Virus record (IMG/VR): IMGVR_UViG_3300050821_002260
Coordinates: 1 to 64,000 of that record
DNA: 64,000 bases
From: a virus
Strand: one strand, 5' to 3'
Made by a program: the position numbers and the translations under genes. Under the pieces are notes generated by a model, which worked only from the letters and a program-made list of their open reading frames with translations, ran no database searches and had not been told where the DNA came from. Positions 1,076-5,993 of this stretch are shown piece after piece. Position 1 is the stretch's first letter, and every line of letters starts with the position of its first letter.

Positions 1076-2557
1076 TCAGTTCACCGCCTTGCTGATAGTG
1101 GCCTTCCCATTCCCGTTCGGCTTGGGAGTTGGAGGGACTTTATTCTCCGTCATGAAGTCGGCAGGCACGGCGTTTTCGTGCCCGTGTTCTAGTGAGAGTT
1201 GGAGCATTTTGTTGACGTCGTCATCGGTGCAATTTGCGACGTGGATGCGGTTGAGGCCCGTTTTATCCGGCGACAATATGAACATGTCGCCCTTGCCTAG
1301 CAGGTTCTCTGCTCCACGCTGGCCTAGGATGGTCTTGCTGTTCACGGCGTCTGGCATTCTGAACGCGGCGCGACCGAGGAAGTTGACCTTGATTTTGCCA
1401 GACACGACATCGACCGACGGACGCTGCGTGCAAGTGATGACGCAGATTCCAGCGGCGCGGGCCATCTGACTGATAGAGGCCATCCGTTTTGTGAACTCCT
1501 TTTTCTCCTCCAGCACGATTTCAGCCATTTCGTCGATGACCAGCACGATGTAGTACCATTTCTCGGCCATCTTCTTGGCTGCCTGCTCTTCCAGCATCTT
1601 GCGAACGTTGCCTTCCTTGGCTTTAAGCGCGGCTTGCTTGAGTTCGTCCGCTTCTTTCTGGAGGCGGTCGTTGAGTTCCTTGATGTTGTTGACCTTCAGC
1701 ACATGAAGGTTAGCGGTGCGCCGTTTCATTTCCTGGATAAGGGTTTCCATGACGTTGAGGCAGCCCCAGACCGTGAACTCTGGCGGCATCAGCATGTGAG
1801 GCAGCCCCTTGAACCTGAACAGCTCCACTTGCTTCGGGTCCACGAACGCGAACCGGAGTTCGCTTGGAGTGCGGATTTCTGCCAGACTGGTAATGATTTG
1901 CTTGAGCAGTGTAGATTTGCCGGTCCCGGTAGAACCGCCGACCAGCATGTGAGGGAATGTAGCCAAGTCTTCCACGTATGGAGCGCCTTCCGACGTGAGC
2001 CCGAAGTTGAGCGGGAGCGCCATGTCGTAGCGATGCGCCAGAGTGTTCTTGAAGCAGGACTCATGCGTGACAACGAGCCTTTCTCCGTTCGGCATGGAAA
2101 CGCCGACCACTGGCTTGCCGGGGATGCGGCGGATTGTGACCGTCTCGACCGACAATGCCAGCGCGAGGTCCTCATTGAGGGACTTGAGCCTCTTGACTCG
2201 CGTGAACCGGTCAGGCGTGAATAGGTACTCCGTCACGACCGGCCCTTTGACTATGCCGGTCACTTGACCCGGACAGTCGAAGTTTTTGCAGGACTCCGTT
2301 ATCATCTTGACGATTTCTTCCTGCTTCTTGCCGACCGGGTTGAGTTCGCGTGGGAACCGTTTCTTGCCGTCTGGCTTTTTCTGGCCTTCCAACTTGAACG
2401 GTGACGTCGTGCTGCCACAGAGCGGACAGTGACGGCGCTTTGTGAGCAGGTCCTTGTTAACGATGCGGCAATTGCGACAGATTTTGTACTCGCTGATTTT
2501 GTACATCATTTCTTCAGACAGTTTTTGCATGACTTGTCTCCATTTGTTCTCGCTCAC
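1076..2557 (-). CDS. FtsK/SpoIIIE-family DNA translocase
   Basis: 493 residues. An N-terminal zinc ribbon (C27, C30, C44, C47) is followed by a KRFPR motif at 66-70, an FtsK alpha/beta-like region at about 80-160, and the RecA-like motor: Walker A GSTGTGKS 208-215, Walker B VLVIDEMAE 338-346, TQRPS 377-381 and the family signature GAENLLGKGDM 415-425. There are no membrane spans and no C-terminal gamma winged helix, so it is a soluble motor without the usual KOPS-reading domain. In a phage it could pump or resolve DNA or displace proteins; the role is inferred. It is followed within 3 nt by the micropeptide gene. Confidence 0.9.
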   Translation of the reverse strand: MSENKWRQVMQKLSEEMMYKISEYKICRNCRIVNKDLLTKRRHCPLCGSTTSPFKLEGQKKPDGKKRFPRELNPVGKKQEEIVKMITESCKNFDCPGQVTGIVKGPVVTEYLFTPDRFTRVKRLKSLNEDLALALSVETVTIRRIPGKPVVGVSMPNGERLVVTHESCFKNTLAHRYDMALPLNFGLTSEGAPYVEDLATFPHMLVGGSTGTGKSTLLKQIITSLAEIRTPSELRFAFVDPKQVELFRFKGLPHMLMPPEFTVWGCLNVMETLIQEMKRRTANLHVLKVNNIKELNDRLQKEADELKQAALKAKEGNVRKMLEEQAAKKMAEKWYYIVLVIDEMAEIVLEEKKEFTKRMASISQMARAAGICVITCTQRPSVDVVSGKIKVNFLGRAAFRMPDAVNSKTILGQRGAENLLGKGDMFILSPDKTGLNRIHVANCTDDDVNKMLQLSLEHGHENAVPADFMTENKVPPTPKPNGNGKATISKAVN

Positions 2558-2614
2558 CTGCTAGGTAGAGGAGATTGTGGTGGATTCTAGGCTCCACCTT
2601 GCCTTTGATTGGCC

Positions 2615-2791
2615 TCAAGCTATCTTGCTGACCGGGACTTCCACCCGGCCTTGAATAGTCGTGATGGCGATTTCCAGTGCGCGACGGCGCTTCTTGCCTT
2701 CCGTATTCTTGAGGATTTTCTCCAGATACGGAATGGCCTCCCGTTTCGTCATGGACTTCGCCTTGATTTTCTTACCTTGTTCGTTACGCAT
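2615..2791 (-). CDS. Hypothetical basic 58-aa protein
   Basis: 58 residues, MRNEQGKKIKAKSMTKREAI onward, lysine/arginine-rich with a predicted helical middle. I chose the ATG at 2791 rather than the longer frame from 2881 because AAAGGAG lies 9 nt upstream and because the longer frame would overlap almost all of the preceding 65-aa gene. It overlaps that gene by 8 nt. Probably nucleic-acid binding by charge; family not recognised. Confidence 0.6.
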   Translation of the reverse strand: MRNEQGKKIKAKSMTKREAIPYLEKILKNTEGKKRRRALEIAITTIQGRVEVPVSKIA

Positions 2792-2981
2792 TTTGTGTTG
2801 CTCCTTTCCCGCTTTGGGGAATTCGATTGCTGGTATTGTTGGCCGAACTGATGTGACGCTGTGTCGCGTGACGGAACCCACGCATTTCGTCTCGCAGGAA
2901 ACGCTGGATTTCGTCGGACTTTTCCTTGCTGAGATACTGCCCTACTGTTTGACCGTTGACAGTTACTGTGACTGCTTGCAT
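2784..2981 (-). CDS. Hypothetical 65-aa protein
   Basis: 65 residues beginning MQAVTVTVNGQTVGQYLSKE. The first half looks like a short beta hairpin and helix (a small fold with 'VNGQ'); the second half is basic and polar. GGAAGGGAG lies 5-8 nt before the ATG. The end overlaps the following 58-aa gene by 8 nt, suggesting translational coupling. Family not recognised. Confidence 0.6.
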   Translation of the reverse strand: MQAVTVTVNGQTVGQYLSKEKSDEIQRFLRDEMRGFRHATQRHISSANNTSNRIPQSGKGATQNA

Positions 2982-3021
2982 GTGATGCTCCCTTCCTTTT
3001 TAGGTCCTGGGGGACCGATTT

Positions 3022-3471
3022 CTACCGCGTGGCCTTTTGAATCCGGCGTTCTGTTTCCCTGAGTTGCTTCTTGGTCCACGTCCGTGCTGCCGGATGCAGC
3101 AACCAGAACACCGTTCTACCATCAACGTCGAGTGATGAAAAATATTCGAAATCAATATTCTTATCGGAGAGTGCATAACCAGACTCTCTGAATGTTTTCC
3201 TAGCTACAGCGCCACAAACTAGAATTATGCTTGGATTCAAGCGTGTCAGGTTTTCATGGAGCCATTTTGCGTCCGGCTTTCCGTGGTGGTTGGCAGACGT
3301 GACTAGTTCGCGGCAGCAATTCGTCACGACCAGCCGATGCGCGTTTTCTGGCCCTACGAATTTGTAGAGTCGCTTGCCAGATTTGTTATGCGGGTTGATT
3401 TTGAAATATCGTGGAGCGCGGCCTTCCCTGTCGCCCCACATTGTTTCGAGGACTGCGACGATGAAACTCAC
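3022..3471 (-). CDS. Uracil-DNA glycosylase-superfamily-like protein
   Basis: 149 residues. It starts with a segment containing MWGDREGRAPRYF and FKINPHNKSGKRL, followed by VVTNCCRELVT (49-59), IILVCGAVARKTF (81-93) and WLLHPAARTW (122-131). The strand-then-VCGxVA element and the 'HPAAR' element resemble the central and C-terminal motifs of UDG-fold proteins (for example LHPSP), but the water-activating motif is not clear, so activity is uncertain. Start overlaps the upstream stop as ATGA. A DNA repair or base-discrimination role would fit the replication module. Confidence 0.45.
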   Translation of the reverse strand: MSFIVAVLETMWGDREGRAPRYFKINPHNKSGKRLYKFVGPENAHRLVVTNCCRELVTSANHHGKPDAKWLHENLTRLNPSIILVCGAVARKTFRESGYALSDKNIDFEYFSSLDVDGRTVFWLLHPAARTWTKKQLRETERRIQKATR

Positions 3472-3773
3472 TTCGGTGCCTCAGTTTCGTCTGCCACGTC
3501 CGGCATCATTTCTTCCTCTTCAATTTGTTCCTGTTCATGAGTTGGACACAGCAAGTCGTACGGTCCGGGGTCTTGGCTGGCCATGATTGTCCACGTGTGA
3601 TTTCCGCGAGTGCAGAAATGCTTGTAGACGTTTGGGTAGAGTTGCTGGTCCATTTGCTCTACCGCTGTCTGCATGATTGTTCGATACGCAGCGATTTCGC
3701 GGTCCTTACGAACTTGCAAAACCGCACGCAGCATTTTCAAGTCGTCTATCGACATGTCCAATTCGATTTTCAT
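3468..3773 (-). CDS. Hypothetical 101-aa protein
   Basis: 101 residues starting MKIELDMSIDDLKMLRAVLQ, mostly helical, with a very acidic C-terminus (QEQIEEEEMMPD). The start at 3773 is chosen over a longer frame because AAAGGAG stands 5 nt upstream and because it overlaps the preceding stop as ATGA. A C (C80-x-x-H pattern) pair is present but no known motif. Function unknown. Confidence 0.65.
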   Translation of the reverse strand: MKIELDMSIDDLKMLRAVLQVRKDREIAAYRTIMQTAVEQMDQQLYPNVYKHFCTRGNHTWTIMASQDPGPYDLLCPTHEQEQIEEEEMMPDVADETEAPK

Positions 3774-3964
3774 ACCCGCTCCTTTACTGCGATGATATGC
3801 TTGCACTTTCCACGGTGGAATATCCAGTGACGGCAAGAACATTGCCATTGGCCTTGTGAAGTCCGGCGCACGATATAGTGTTTGCGTGCATCGGATTGTG
3901 AATTGACGGTGAACCTGCGAACGTGGCCTTGCGTTTCCCGTTTCAGGATTGCGATTGGAGCCAT
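3770..3964 (-). CDS. SWIM-type zinc-finger-like protein
   Basis: 64 residues. The C-terminal half has QWQCSCRHWIFHRGKCKHII, the C-x-C-x(n)-C-x-H arrangement of SWIM zinc fingers, preceded by a beta strand 'HYIVRRTSQGQW'. SWIM domains bind DNA or proteins and occur in transposase, helicase and ubiquitin contexts; here it stands alone. The ATG directly follows the TAA of the upstream gene. Partner unknown. Confidence 0.65.
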   Translation of the reverse strand: MAPIAILKRETQGHVRRFTVNSQSDARKHYIVRRTSQGQWQCSCRHWIFHRGKCKHIIAVKERV

Positions 3965-4168
3965 TTAGCTCACCGTCCCAAACGTTGTGTAGGTCACTGG
4001 CCTATCATGCTTTGTTACTGGACGCCAGCGACCTAATATGCCGCCCGAATATTTCAACTCGGATTTCTTTTCGGCCACGGCATGTCTATCGCACCAATCC
4101 CAGTGTGTGCCATTACCGAATTGGCGTTGCGTTGCTGGCCTATTGCATCCTGGTTGATTGCATTTCAT
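3965..4168 (-). CDS. Small Cys/His-rich protein
   Basis: 67 residues starting MKCNQPGCNRPATQRQF, with C3, C8, C26 and H29 (WCDRHA) forming a likely zinc site of the CxxxxC...CDxH type seen in many small phage proteins. GGAAGTGG precedes the ATG. It is the first gene after a 690-nt non-coding stretch. Function unknown. Confidence 0.6.
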   Translation of the reverse strand: MKCNQPGCNRPATQRQFGNGTHWDWCDRHAVAEKKSELKYSGGILGRWRPVTKHDRPVTYTTFGTVS

Positions 4169-4833
4169 GTTACCACTTCCTTACTCCGCCATTTCAGCGG
4201 CGAGGATGTTCACTGTCATTGTAGACACGTGACGTTGTCATTCAGGCGTAAACTCAACCTCGCCCGCCATCGTTGTGAACATCCACGTCGCTGGAGAAGA
4301 AACTTTCCTAGAAACTCATGCGGTATCCGACGCCTGATGCCTTGCGGCATATTCCTAGTCCCGTGTAAGGGGACGTGCGGTATGTCGGGCCTGATTCCTT
4401 CTCAAGCGAGATGAAATTGTTTGTTCGAAACTCCCATGTCAGCTTGATTTGCGAAACCTTGCGATACATTTAACGTCCGTTCAGTCGGACGGTGGTAGTT
4501 CTTTTACGGGTCCACCACGCCTAAACCTAGGAACACCTGACTGGTAGCGACCACAGAGGGAATTACGCTGACCGAGGGTCCTACACGTTCAATCAACCAT
4601 CCTCTCGATTACCATGCGGCATTGCATGGCTGAATTCTTAAAATCCGATGGAATATTGAACGACTGCCTTGCCTGAGGACGCTGAGCGGCCAACCAGATT
4701 TCCGGCTCGCTACATTGTTCTTACCGTGTGTCGAGTTTTTACGTGCCACTAGCACTGGACTCTAGCACTAAGACCCCGAGCGTGTCCGCGATGGGTCGTA
4801 GAACTTTGTAGGTTGCCTACTTTTCTGGATTGC
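4169..4833. other. Non-coding stretch with small hairpins
   Basis: About 665 nt with no credible gene on either strand. Short perfect hairpins occur at 4337-4350 (ATGCC/GGCAT with a GCAA loop on the minus strand), 4358-4374 (GTCCC/GGGAC), 4475-4490 (GTCCG/CGGAC) and 4612-4629 (CCATGC/GCATGG). I looked for tRNA T-loops and for group I P7 pairs and found no complete set. Very short minus-strand frames just before 4168 lack good start signals. It may be the 3' part of a structured RNA that also includes the stem around the HNH gene. Confidence 0.55.
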
Positions 4834-5197
4834 TGGCTGTAACCCTTAGCGGGGGAAACTAGTTCACCCGCATCTCGCCATTGCGCCACCGGAGTTTCAT
4901 GTGGAAACTCCGATGACATTTATCATGGGCGAGAGTTTTGTTGCCCTTGCTGTCGTTGGAGTGGTCCAGGTCCTTGTGATGGATTGTGATAGTCCTTGAA
5001 ATTGGACTGCCCTGCCCATCGCCGTCCTTGGCATAACTCTCATACCCTAGCAAGGGTTCCTTGCAGAAGTAACAGTGTTTGTCTCGCAGGAAAAAATGGA
5101 GGAGTTCCCGACACTTCCGCAATTCTTGGCGTGTAGATTTTCGCATTGACATTGTACCCTCGTGGGGGTAAGTTTACCCCGCAAAAGGTTACAGCCA
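4834..5197 (-). ncRNA. Structured RNA candidate: 21-bp stem enclosing an HNH gene
   Basis: The segments 5177-5197 and 4834-4854 are complementary on one strand over 21 positions with one T-T mismatch and one G-T wobble. The core is GGCTGTAACC against GGTTACAGCC, plus GCGGGG against CCCCGC. The 97-aa HNH gene sits entirely in the loop. This is the arrangement expected when a homing endonuclease gene occupies a peripheral loop of a self-splicing intron. I could not identify a group I core (P3/P7) or the exons, so the class of RNA is open. Confidence 0.55.
4859..5152 (-). CDS. HNH endonuclease (97 aa)
   Basis: 97 residues. C28/C31 (CYFCKEP), then ISRTITIHHKDLDHSNDSKG with the catalytic-type HH at about 58-59 and the N/H positions of an HNH motif, then C78-H79 (KCHRSFH). 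This is a compact HNH nuclease of the homing type. It lies in the loop of a 21-bp stem and is flanked on both sides by non-coding DNA, consistent with an intron- or RNA-borne homing endonuclease. The ATG at 5152 follows the 12-mer AGGGTACAATGT, in which GGG may serve as a weak SD. Confidence 0.8.
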   Translation of the reverse strand: MSMRKSTRQELRKCRELLHFFLRDKHCYFCKEPLLGYESYAKDGDGQGSPISRTITIHHKDLDHSNDSKGNKTLAHDKCHRSFHMKLRWRNGEMRVN

Positions 5198-5681
5198 CGT
5201 CTCTCGTGTTAGGCCAGCGTTCTCAGCTTAATCCCCAATAGGTTGCACGGTGTTGCTATACCTTATGCCTCCCCGCTACTCGTCAACTCCTAGAGCCTCA
5301 CGGCCACACTTTTGCGGGTTACGCTACCTTATATAGTGCCTTGCAGCGCGGTAGCTTACAGCGCGGTACTAGCGCACGTCTCCCAGTACATTGTACTGGC
5401 ACCTACTAACTTTCAGCTTTTCGTCCCTAGTGGCCTTAATGCCTTAACCTTGTTTGGGGTCCTGCCCATAGCATTTTGTGTGCGCTACAGGGGTCAGACT
5501 GGCGTACCAGTTTCTGCCTATCAGTGGCCTATCCCCACTAGTGCCGTGTCTCACGACGCGCACGTTTGTCGGACTTTTTGCTGGCCTAGTTATTTTTCAA
5601 AGAACAGCGGTTTGCGGTAGTGCAAACCGTACTACTAAACAACACAAACATTGTACCCTAAAACTAGGCAGTACGCAAGGA
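5198..5681. other. Non-coding, hairpin-rich stretch upstream of the HNH gene
   Basis: About 480 nt without a credible gene. Perfect stems are at 5383-5399 (CCAGTACA/TGTACTGG), 5498-5511 (ACTGG/CCAGT, 4-nt loop), 5523-5539 (AGTGG/CCACT) and 5609-5628 (GGTTTGC/GCAAACC). The 10-mer TACCGCGCTG occurs twice near 5345-5370. The 12-mer AGGGTACAATGT occurs at 5648-5659 and again at 5149-5160, just before the HNH start. No tRNA is recognisable. A structured RNA, intron part or regulatory region is likely. Confidence 0.55.
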
Positions 5682-5993
5682 CTATTTTGACCTTTGTTGG
5701 CGCTCTTTCCACGAGGTCAAAATCCTGCGAGCCGTTTTCGCCTCCGTTTTTAGGTAGGGTAAAACGGCTTCCAGCAAACGGACCGCTTTTCGGCCCTGAA
5801 TGCGGTACGACAGCCGCTCTGGGTCGCCGTTCGAATACCACGACCCACCGAATTCTTTTTTGAGCAATTTTGGCAGATTGCCCTTCGTCCTGAGGCGCAT
5901 CTGGAAATTGCCTGTTTTCAGGACGTGGAATTTCATACGCTCGTCCAGCGCTCCAGCCAGATATGCCAGATCGCGCTCTTTCCTGAATTTCAT
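5682..5993 (-). CDS. LAGLIDADG-type homing endonuclease-like protein
   Basis: 103 residues. A single LAGLIDADG-like helix is seen in LAYLAGALDERM (9-20), followed by strands and a helix-rich C-terminal part (RKAVRLLEAVLPYLKTEAK) typical of the saddle fold. One motif suggests a homodimer or maturase-like protein; the last acidic residue of the motif appears replaced (DERM), so activity is uncertain. The start overlaps the primase stop (4 nt), and it borders the structured region that harbours the HNH gene, so the two may belong to one invasion history. Confidence 0.65.
   Translation of the reverse strand: MKFRKERDLAYLAGALDERMKFHVLKTGNFQMRLRTKGNLPKLLKKEFGGSWYSNGDPERLSYRIQGRKAVRLLEAVLPYLKTEAKTARRILTSWKERQQRSK

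Follow-up and report, generated by a model that had tools for sequence, protein, structure and literature searches.

The DNA analysed here (the window) is a 64,000-nucleotide part of a 91,991-base IMG/VR virus record. Its minus strand contains a long noncoding region that sits between complete ORFs and holds an HNH endonuclease gene (Table 1). The original prediction placed this gene inside a near-perfect 21-bp stem with noncoding DNA on both sides, and both statements were confirmed: 5'-TGGCTGTAACCTTTTGCGGGG (5197–5177, minus strand) pairs with CCCCGCTAAGGGTTACAGCCA (4854–4834) through 20 base pairs, including one wobble, plus one T-T mismatch, and noncoding gaps extend over 5153–5681 and 4169–4858. 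The inverted repeat reaches 27 nt at 89% complementarity. When the 80-nt flanks were shuffled 2000 times, the mean helix score was 6.9 and the largest 15.0; the stem scores 18.5, and no shuffle was as high. The 97-aa HNH protein has weak PHROG matches (best phrog_1271, E=1.3e-4) and no match in Pfam, and the HNH motif residues (C..C/HH/N/H..CH..H) are conserved across four relatives.

Table 1. Features of the proposed RNA and of the gene in its loop, in window coordinates
Feature	Position	Strand	Support
Sigma70-like promoter, TTGCGT-17 nt-TACAAT	5650–5678	-	TTTACN-17-TANNAT-type element at the same place in L005, L043, L039
Proposed giant structured RNA	4197–5643	-	Homologues in L005, L012, L043 and diverged L039; folding z-scores
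boxB-like hairpin, directly before boxA	5608–5629	-	In 4 RNAs; 5/8 pairs with two-sided changes
boxA-like TGTTCTTTGAAAAATAA	5590–5606	-	TGYTCWTTGAAAAATAA at the same place in L005, L012, L043
ORF-bearing stem, 5' strand	5177–5197	-	Shuffle test, covariation, folding
Small hairpin GGGGTAAACTTACCCC, between stem and HNH ORF	5165–5180	-	Analogous hairpins in L005 (GGGGCAAATTTGCTCC) and L012 (GGGTGAAACCATCACCC)
Shine-Dalgarno-like GAGGG, upstream of HNH start	5157–5161	-	Sequence
HNH endonuclease gene, 97 aa, in loop	4859–5152	-	PHROG HNH matches; relatives L004–L008
ORF-bearing stem, 3' strand	4834–4854	-	Shuffle test, covariation, folding
Helix A (4514–4518 with 4492–4496)	4492–4518	-	3/5 pairs covary, 4 RNAs
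Helix B, CGTCCG-ACTGAA-CGGACG, then conserved TNAAA	4474–4491	-	Pattern that found L012; CGTGG/CCACG in L043
Helix C (4396–4403 with 4294–4301)	4294–4403	-	8/8 pairs covary, 4 RNAs; 8/8 pairs also in L039
Terminal helix D (GCGAC..GGATGTTCAC with GTGAACATCC..GCCGC)	4197–4291	-	Anchored scan

Homologous RNAs at one genomic place

Three other uncultivated phages (L005, L012 and L043) carry homologous RNAs at a matching genomic position. With the window RNA they make four clear members, to which L039 adds a diverged fifth; all come from metagenomes. L012, a 104 kb contig, was found by the DNA pattern of helix B, and L043, a 93 kb contig, by a search with the UDG protein. The L005 RNA lies in noncoding DNA at about 3646–4773, between the primase/LAGLIDADG-like genes and a SWIM gene, and has the same 5' hairpin and boxA and the same central stem. 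L039 was reached through the primase; the promoter is retained there, as are helices C and D around AGCGAC, and a plausible ORF-less stem-loop lies at about 3840–3880. Nucleotide similarity between the RNAs is patchy but significant (window–L012, E=1.6e-10; window–L043, 2.3e-8; L005–L043, 1.8e-8). The gene order DnaB–primase–LAGLIDADG-like–RNA–...–FtsK/UDG is common to the window, L005, L012/L033, L043 and L039, with the order of FtsK and UDG varying and different genes directly downstream of the RNA.

Other searches added no members. A DNA search with three members found no matching DNA in isolated phages, a search with the window primase alone gave no relative in IMG/VR, and the distant UDG relatives L046 and L048–L052 have no convincing boxA and no RNA-sized gap. 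The pattern ATTAAGG..AAAGCYGAAAGT gave only chance matches besides L012, and GGATACCGCA..CTAGGAA gave 14 chance matches in GTDB genomes.

The small LAGLIDADG-like protein adjoining the primase (window 5682–5993, minus strand) weakly matches phrog_5046, which is labelled HNH endonuclease. All five phages conserve it, although nuclease genes tend to be sporadic, and it has perhaps been domesticated. A methyltransferase-like gene lies near the primase and LAGLIDADG-like genes in L033 (8130–8843) and L039 (about 2420–3125), on one side of the LAGLIDADG-like gene in the first and on the other side in the second, and is not found there in the window, L005 or L043.

Covarying helices and the 5' leader

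The proposed RNA would measure about 1.45 kb with the HNH ORF and about 1.15 kb without it, taking its start from the promoter and its end from helix D. We examined seven helices with 60 pairs in four RNAs, picked by eye and with their strands hand-aligned around sequence anchors, some helix ends of L012 and L043 being set to N; 220 of the 221 cells are paired (99.5%). Two-sided compensatory changes occur in 32 of the 60 pairs, none of 500 shuffles scored as high, and in a sliding control the paired share falls to 33–42%. Because the helices had been chosen by eye, we also ran a scan anchored on GCGAC: an 8-bp helix had to end 2 nt upstream of this motif, and a 9-nt helix, closed by CGC, had to begin 2 nt downstream. 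The (redundant) sequence scanned, 1.27 Mb, contains 1066 such anchors, and only the four RNAs matched; as the rule was drawn up after they had been seen, the result measures specificity. The ORF-bearing stem persists with compensatory changes in L005, L012 and L043; covariation in relatives was among the checks that the original prediction had proposed.

In the folded full-length window RNA this stem has a mean pair probability of 0.93, and across the window, L005, L012 and L043 RNAs the value is 0.93–1.00. The folding energies of the RNAs lie 3.4–6.9 sd below shuffles; the window RNA has an MFE z-score of -4.7 (-4.9 without the ORF), and coding controls of the same window range from -1.6 to +1.6. 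The opposite strand of the window folds almost equally well (z -4.5 versus -4.7), so the orientation rests on the promoter, boxA and the Shine-Dalgarno sites. By thermodynamic folding alone, helix C has a probability of 0.00 in the window, boxB and helix B have 0.03 and 0.12 in L043, and boxB of L012 pairs with the far 3' end. For the 5' part, boxB and the ORF stem are the only consensus structure, and outside the anchored motifs the whole-RNA MAFFT/RNAalifold alignment was too poor.

Helix C of the window encloses two copies of a module, ATCAGGC..ATACCGCA..CTAGGAA (4352–4395 and 4305–4338). This tandem duplication (4305–4395, minus strand) corresponds to one copy in L012 and L043 and to none evident in L005 and L039. 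The 3' strand of helix D is overlapped by a hairpin, CCGCTGAAATGGCGG (window 4186–4200, minus strand), with similar GGCGG hairpins in L005 and L043; it could compete with helix D as a possible conformational switch or processing site. Further local hairpins stand at both sides of the loop ORF (the one in Table 1 and another at 4850–4870, minus strand), with strands that overlap the long stem, most clearly in L005 (GCGGGGAAGTTTTCCCCGC). The long stem and these hairpins are possible alternatives, and the choice between them may be affected by translation of the ORF.

Near the 5' end, four of the five RNAs carry a hairpin followed by boxA, L039 having no evident boxA. The hairpin and TGYTCWTTGAAAAATAA are nearly invariant in the four, which are otherwise diverged. 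At the promoter place, L012 has TTTACT with a poor -10. A hairpin followed by boxA is the order of rrn leaders and not that of lambda nut sites. The window boxA reads GYTCWTTGAAAAATAA and differs at one position from the rrn consensus GYTCTTTAANA, a consensus that is gammaproteobacterial (PMC5725501). A check of boxA in hosts gave no usable result: the pattern was absent from six arbitrary genomes, and 16S was found in only one of ten. The leader resembles the boxB-boxA of rrn operons, which directs Nus antitermination, in that a hairpin and then a GYTCTTT-type boxA open a long untranslated RNA; it differs in its boxA sequence and in being part of a phage, with no rRNA after it. Protection from Rho by Nus factors is what we infer, because a kilobase of untranslated RNA would need it.

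The same signals could belong to a long untranslated leader that serves the downstream FtsK/UDG genes in a nut- or put-like antitermination role, and not to an autonomous RNA. The boxB-boxA at the 5' end and the shared orientation of the downstream genes agree with such a leader, and no T-tailed terminator was seen after helix D. Antitermination sites, however, need under 100 nt, and here about 1 kb of covarying structure has been kept; moreover, the genes directly downstream are not the same between phages, and the order of hairpin and boxA is against a nut site. We regard this leader as unlikely, though it is the best of the alternatives.

The stem and its changing loop

The content of the loop turns over while the stem stays. 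The loop holds the HNH gene in the window, a 32-aa zinc-finger ORF in L005, an unrelated 52-aa ORF in L012 and no ORF in L043, where a 9-bp hairpin takes its place; in L039 it probably has no ORF. The flank complementarity around the three loop ORFs was reached by none of 2000 shuffles. Shine-Dalgarno-like sites also precede the ORFs of L005 (GGAGAG) and L012 (AGGAGA). The 32-codon ORF of L005, MRNCDVPGCIKKVVGKTNYCKKHQKTGKKLAA, shows a weak resemblance (phrog_144, E=0.014) to a family of phage HNH endonucleases, in their zinc-binding part, and may be a remnant. Directly after the RNA, the window encodes a 67-aa cysteine-rich protein starting MKCNQPGCNRPA (3965–4168, minus strand), whose cysteine pattern is like that of the L005 loop ORF.

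A structured RNA with a nuclease gene in a peripheral loop, and with relatives that lack the gene, has the look of a homing intron, and the original prediction had left a remnant intron among its options. It had found no group I core, and Rfam 15, the search it had proposed, bears this out: no family matched the 64 kb window at gathering scores, and none matched 4000–5800 at E<=10, group I and II introns included. L043 likewise had no match, with intron models at E<=10 included, and L005 and L012 gave only chance matches to unrelated families, far below threshold. In contrast to group I introns, the RNA interrupts no gene, has its own putative promoter and keeps a fixed genomic place between complete genes, the flanking genes differing among relatives, and we saw no intron-less allele of an interrupted gene. 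A self-splicing intron, whether a degenerate group I or II intron or a new ribozyme, is thus very improbable. Among the options of the original prediction, a novel RNA class fits best, namely a conserved, covarying and syntenic long RNA without an Rfam match. We found no account of such an RNA in the literature (open-access papers).

The HNH gene is also found away from the stem. Its closest relative, found with the HNH protein in L004/L005 (69% identity in the best segment, 64% overall), stands in L005 at 5001–5318, after a SWIM-like gene and outside the RNA and any stem, hence at a different place than in the window. For the free-standing HNH genes, shuffles reached the flank complementarity in 695 of 2000 cases (L005) and 1695 of 2000 (L006). 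Because the stem occurs without the HNH gene (L005, L012, L043) and the HNH gene without the stem (L005, L006), we assign the stem to the host RNA. The stem closely flanks the ORF, as it would if a single mobile element comprising both had inserted into noncoding DNA, but HNH relatives without complementary flanks, the observation that the original prediction had named as its refutation, and stems without HNH leave this reading almost no credence, and we rejected it. The original prediction's inserted element therefore holds for the HNH gene and not for the stem. This gene looks like a passenger in the loop of a new RNA, and its one relocation between the window and L005 suggests mobility, short of proof. 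An RNA-guided nuclease unit like HEARO or IsrB with its omegaRNA, in which the RNA would serve the HNH protein, shares the association of an HNH ORF with a structured RNA and is scarcely credible: the HEARO model gives no match, 97 aa leave room for a single HNH domain only, against several hundred residues for a protein with RuvC-like and HNH parts, the PHROG matches are exclusively of HNH type, the ORF is exchangeable and only one of the four clear RNAs has the HNH gene in its loop, and the HNH relatives L006/L007 fall outside this phage family.

A proposed RNA class and its known counterparts

We consider it probable that the locus encodes a giant, structured noncoding phage RNA of a new class, one that is likely antiterminated by Nus factors and whose ORF-tolerant loop was entered by a homing-type HNH gene. 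In this model, a family of uncultivated dsDNA phages would encode the RNA between the primase/LAGLIDADG-like and FtsK/UDG genes and transcribe it from its own sigma70 promoter, and the rrn-like boxB-boxA would recruit host Nus factors that protect the transcript from Rho termination. The RNA would fold into a 5' part and a 3' part joined by the long central stem, whose terminal loop would be structurally unimportant and could tolerate inserts, so that small ORFs come, degenerate and are lost. In the window a mobile, homing-type HNH gene with its own ribosome-binding site would occupy this loop. The nuclease gene would gain a harmless, transcribed site, and the stem would close beneath the insert, allowing the ORF to be carried, and perhaps translated, with the RNA fold unbroken.

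Giant phage RNAs fall into few known classes, and to our knowledge none of these is understood. The RNA proposed here would add two features: a leader resembling that of rRNA operons, with predicted antitermination, and a conserved stem whose loop has repeatedly received small genes of different kinds, a homing-type nuclease gene among them. If the model is correct, homing genes can settle in structured RNAs that are not introns. It also provides a defined new RNA for tests of structure, expression and partners. A bolder and rather doubtful extension is that the RNA mimics rRNA transcription through boxB-boxA and has a loop dedicated to protein genes that can be exchanged, serving both as a large structural RNA and as a messenger for its cargo, possibly in an oligomeric cage like those of GOLLD and ROOL.

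GOLLD and ROOL are phage- or prophage-encoded RNAs of about 0.6–1 kb with elaborate structure and unknown function (PMC12286853). Their 5' and 3' parts are split by a variable linker, which in GOLLD sometimes holds a tRNA (PMC12286853). We do not file the window RNA under either class because their Rfam models fail to match it. It is, like them, a large phage-encoded structured RNA with a variable part between its 5' and 3' parts; unlike them, it opens with an rrn-like boxB-boxA leader and holds protein-coding ORFs in its variable loop, and the window contains no tRNA.
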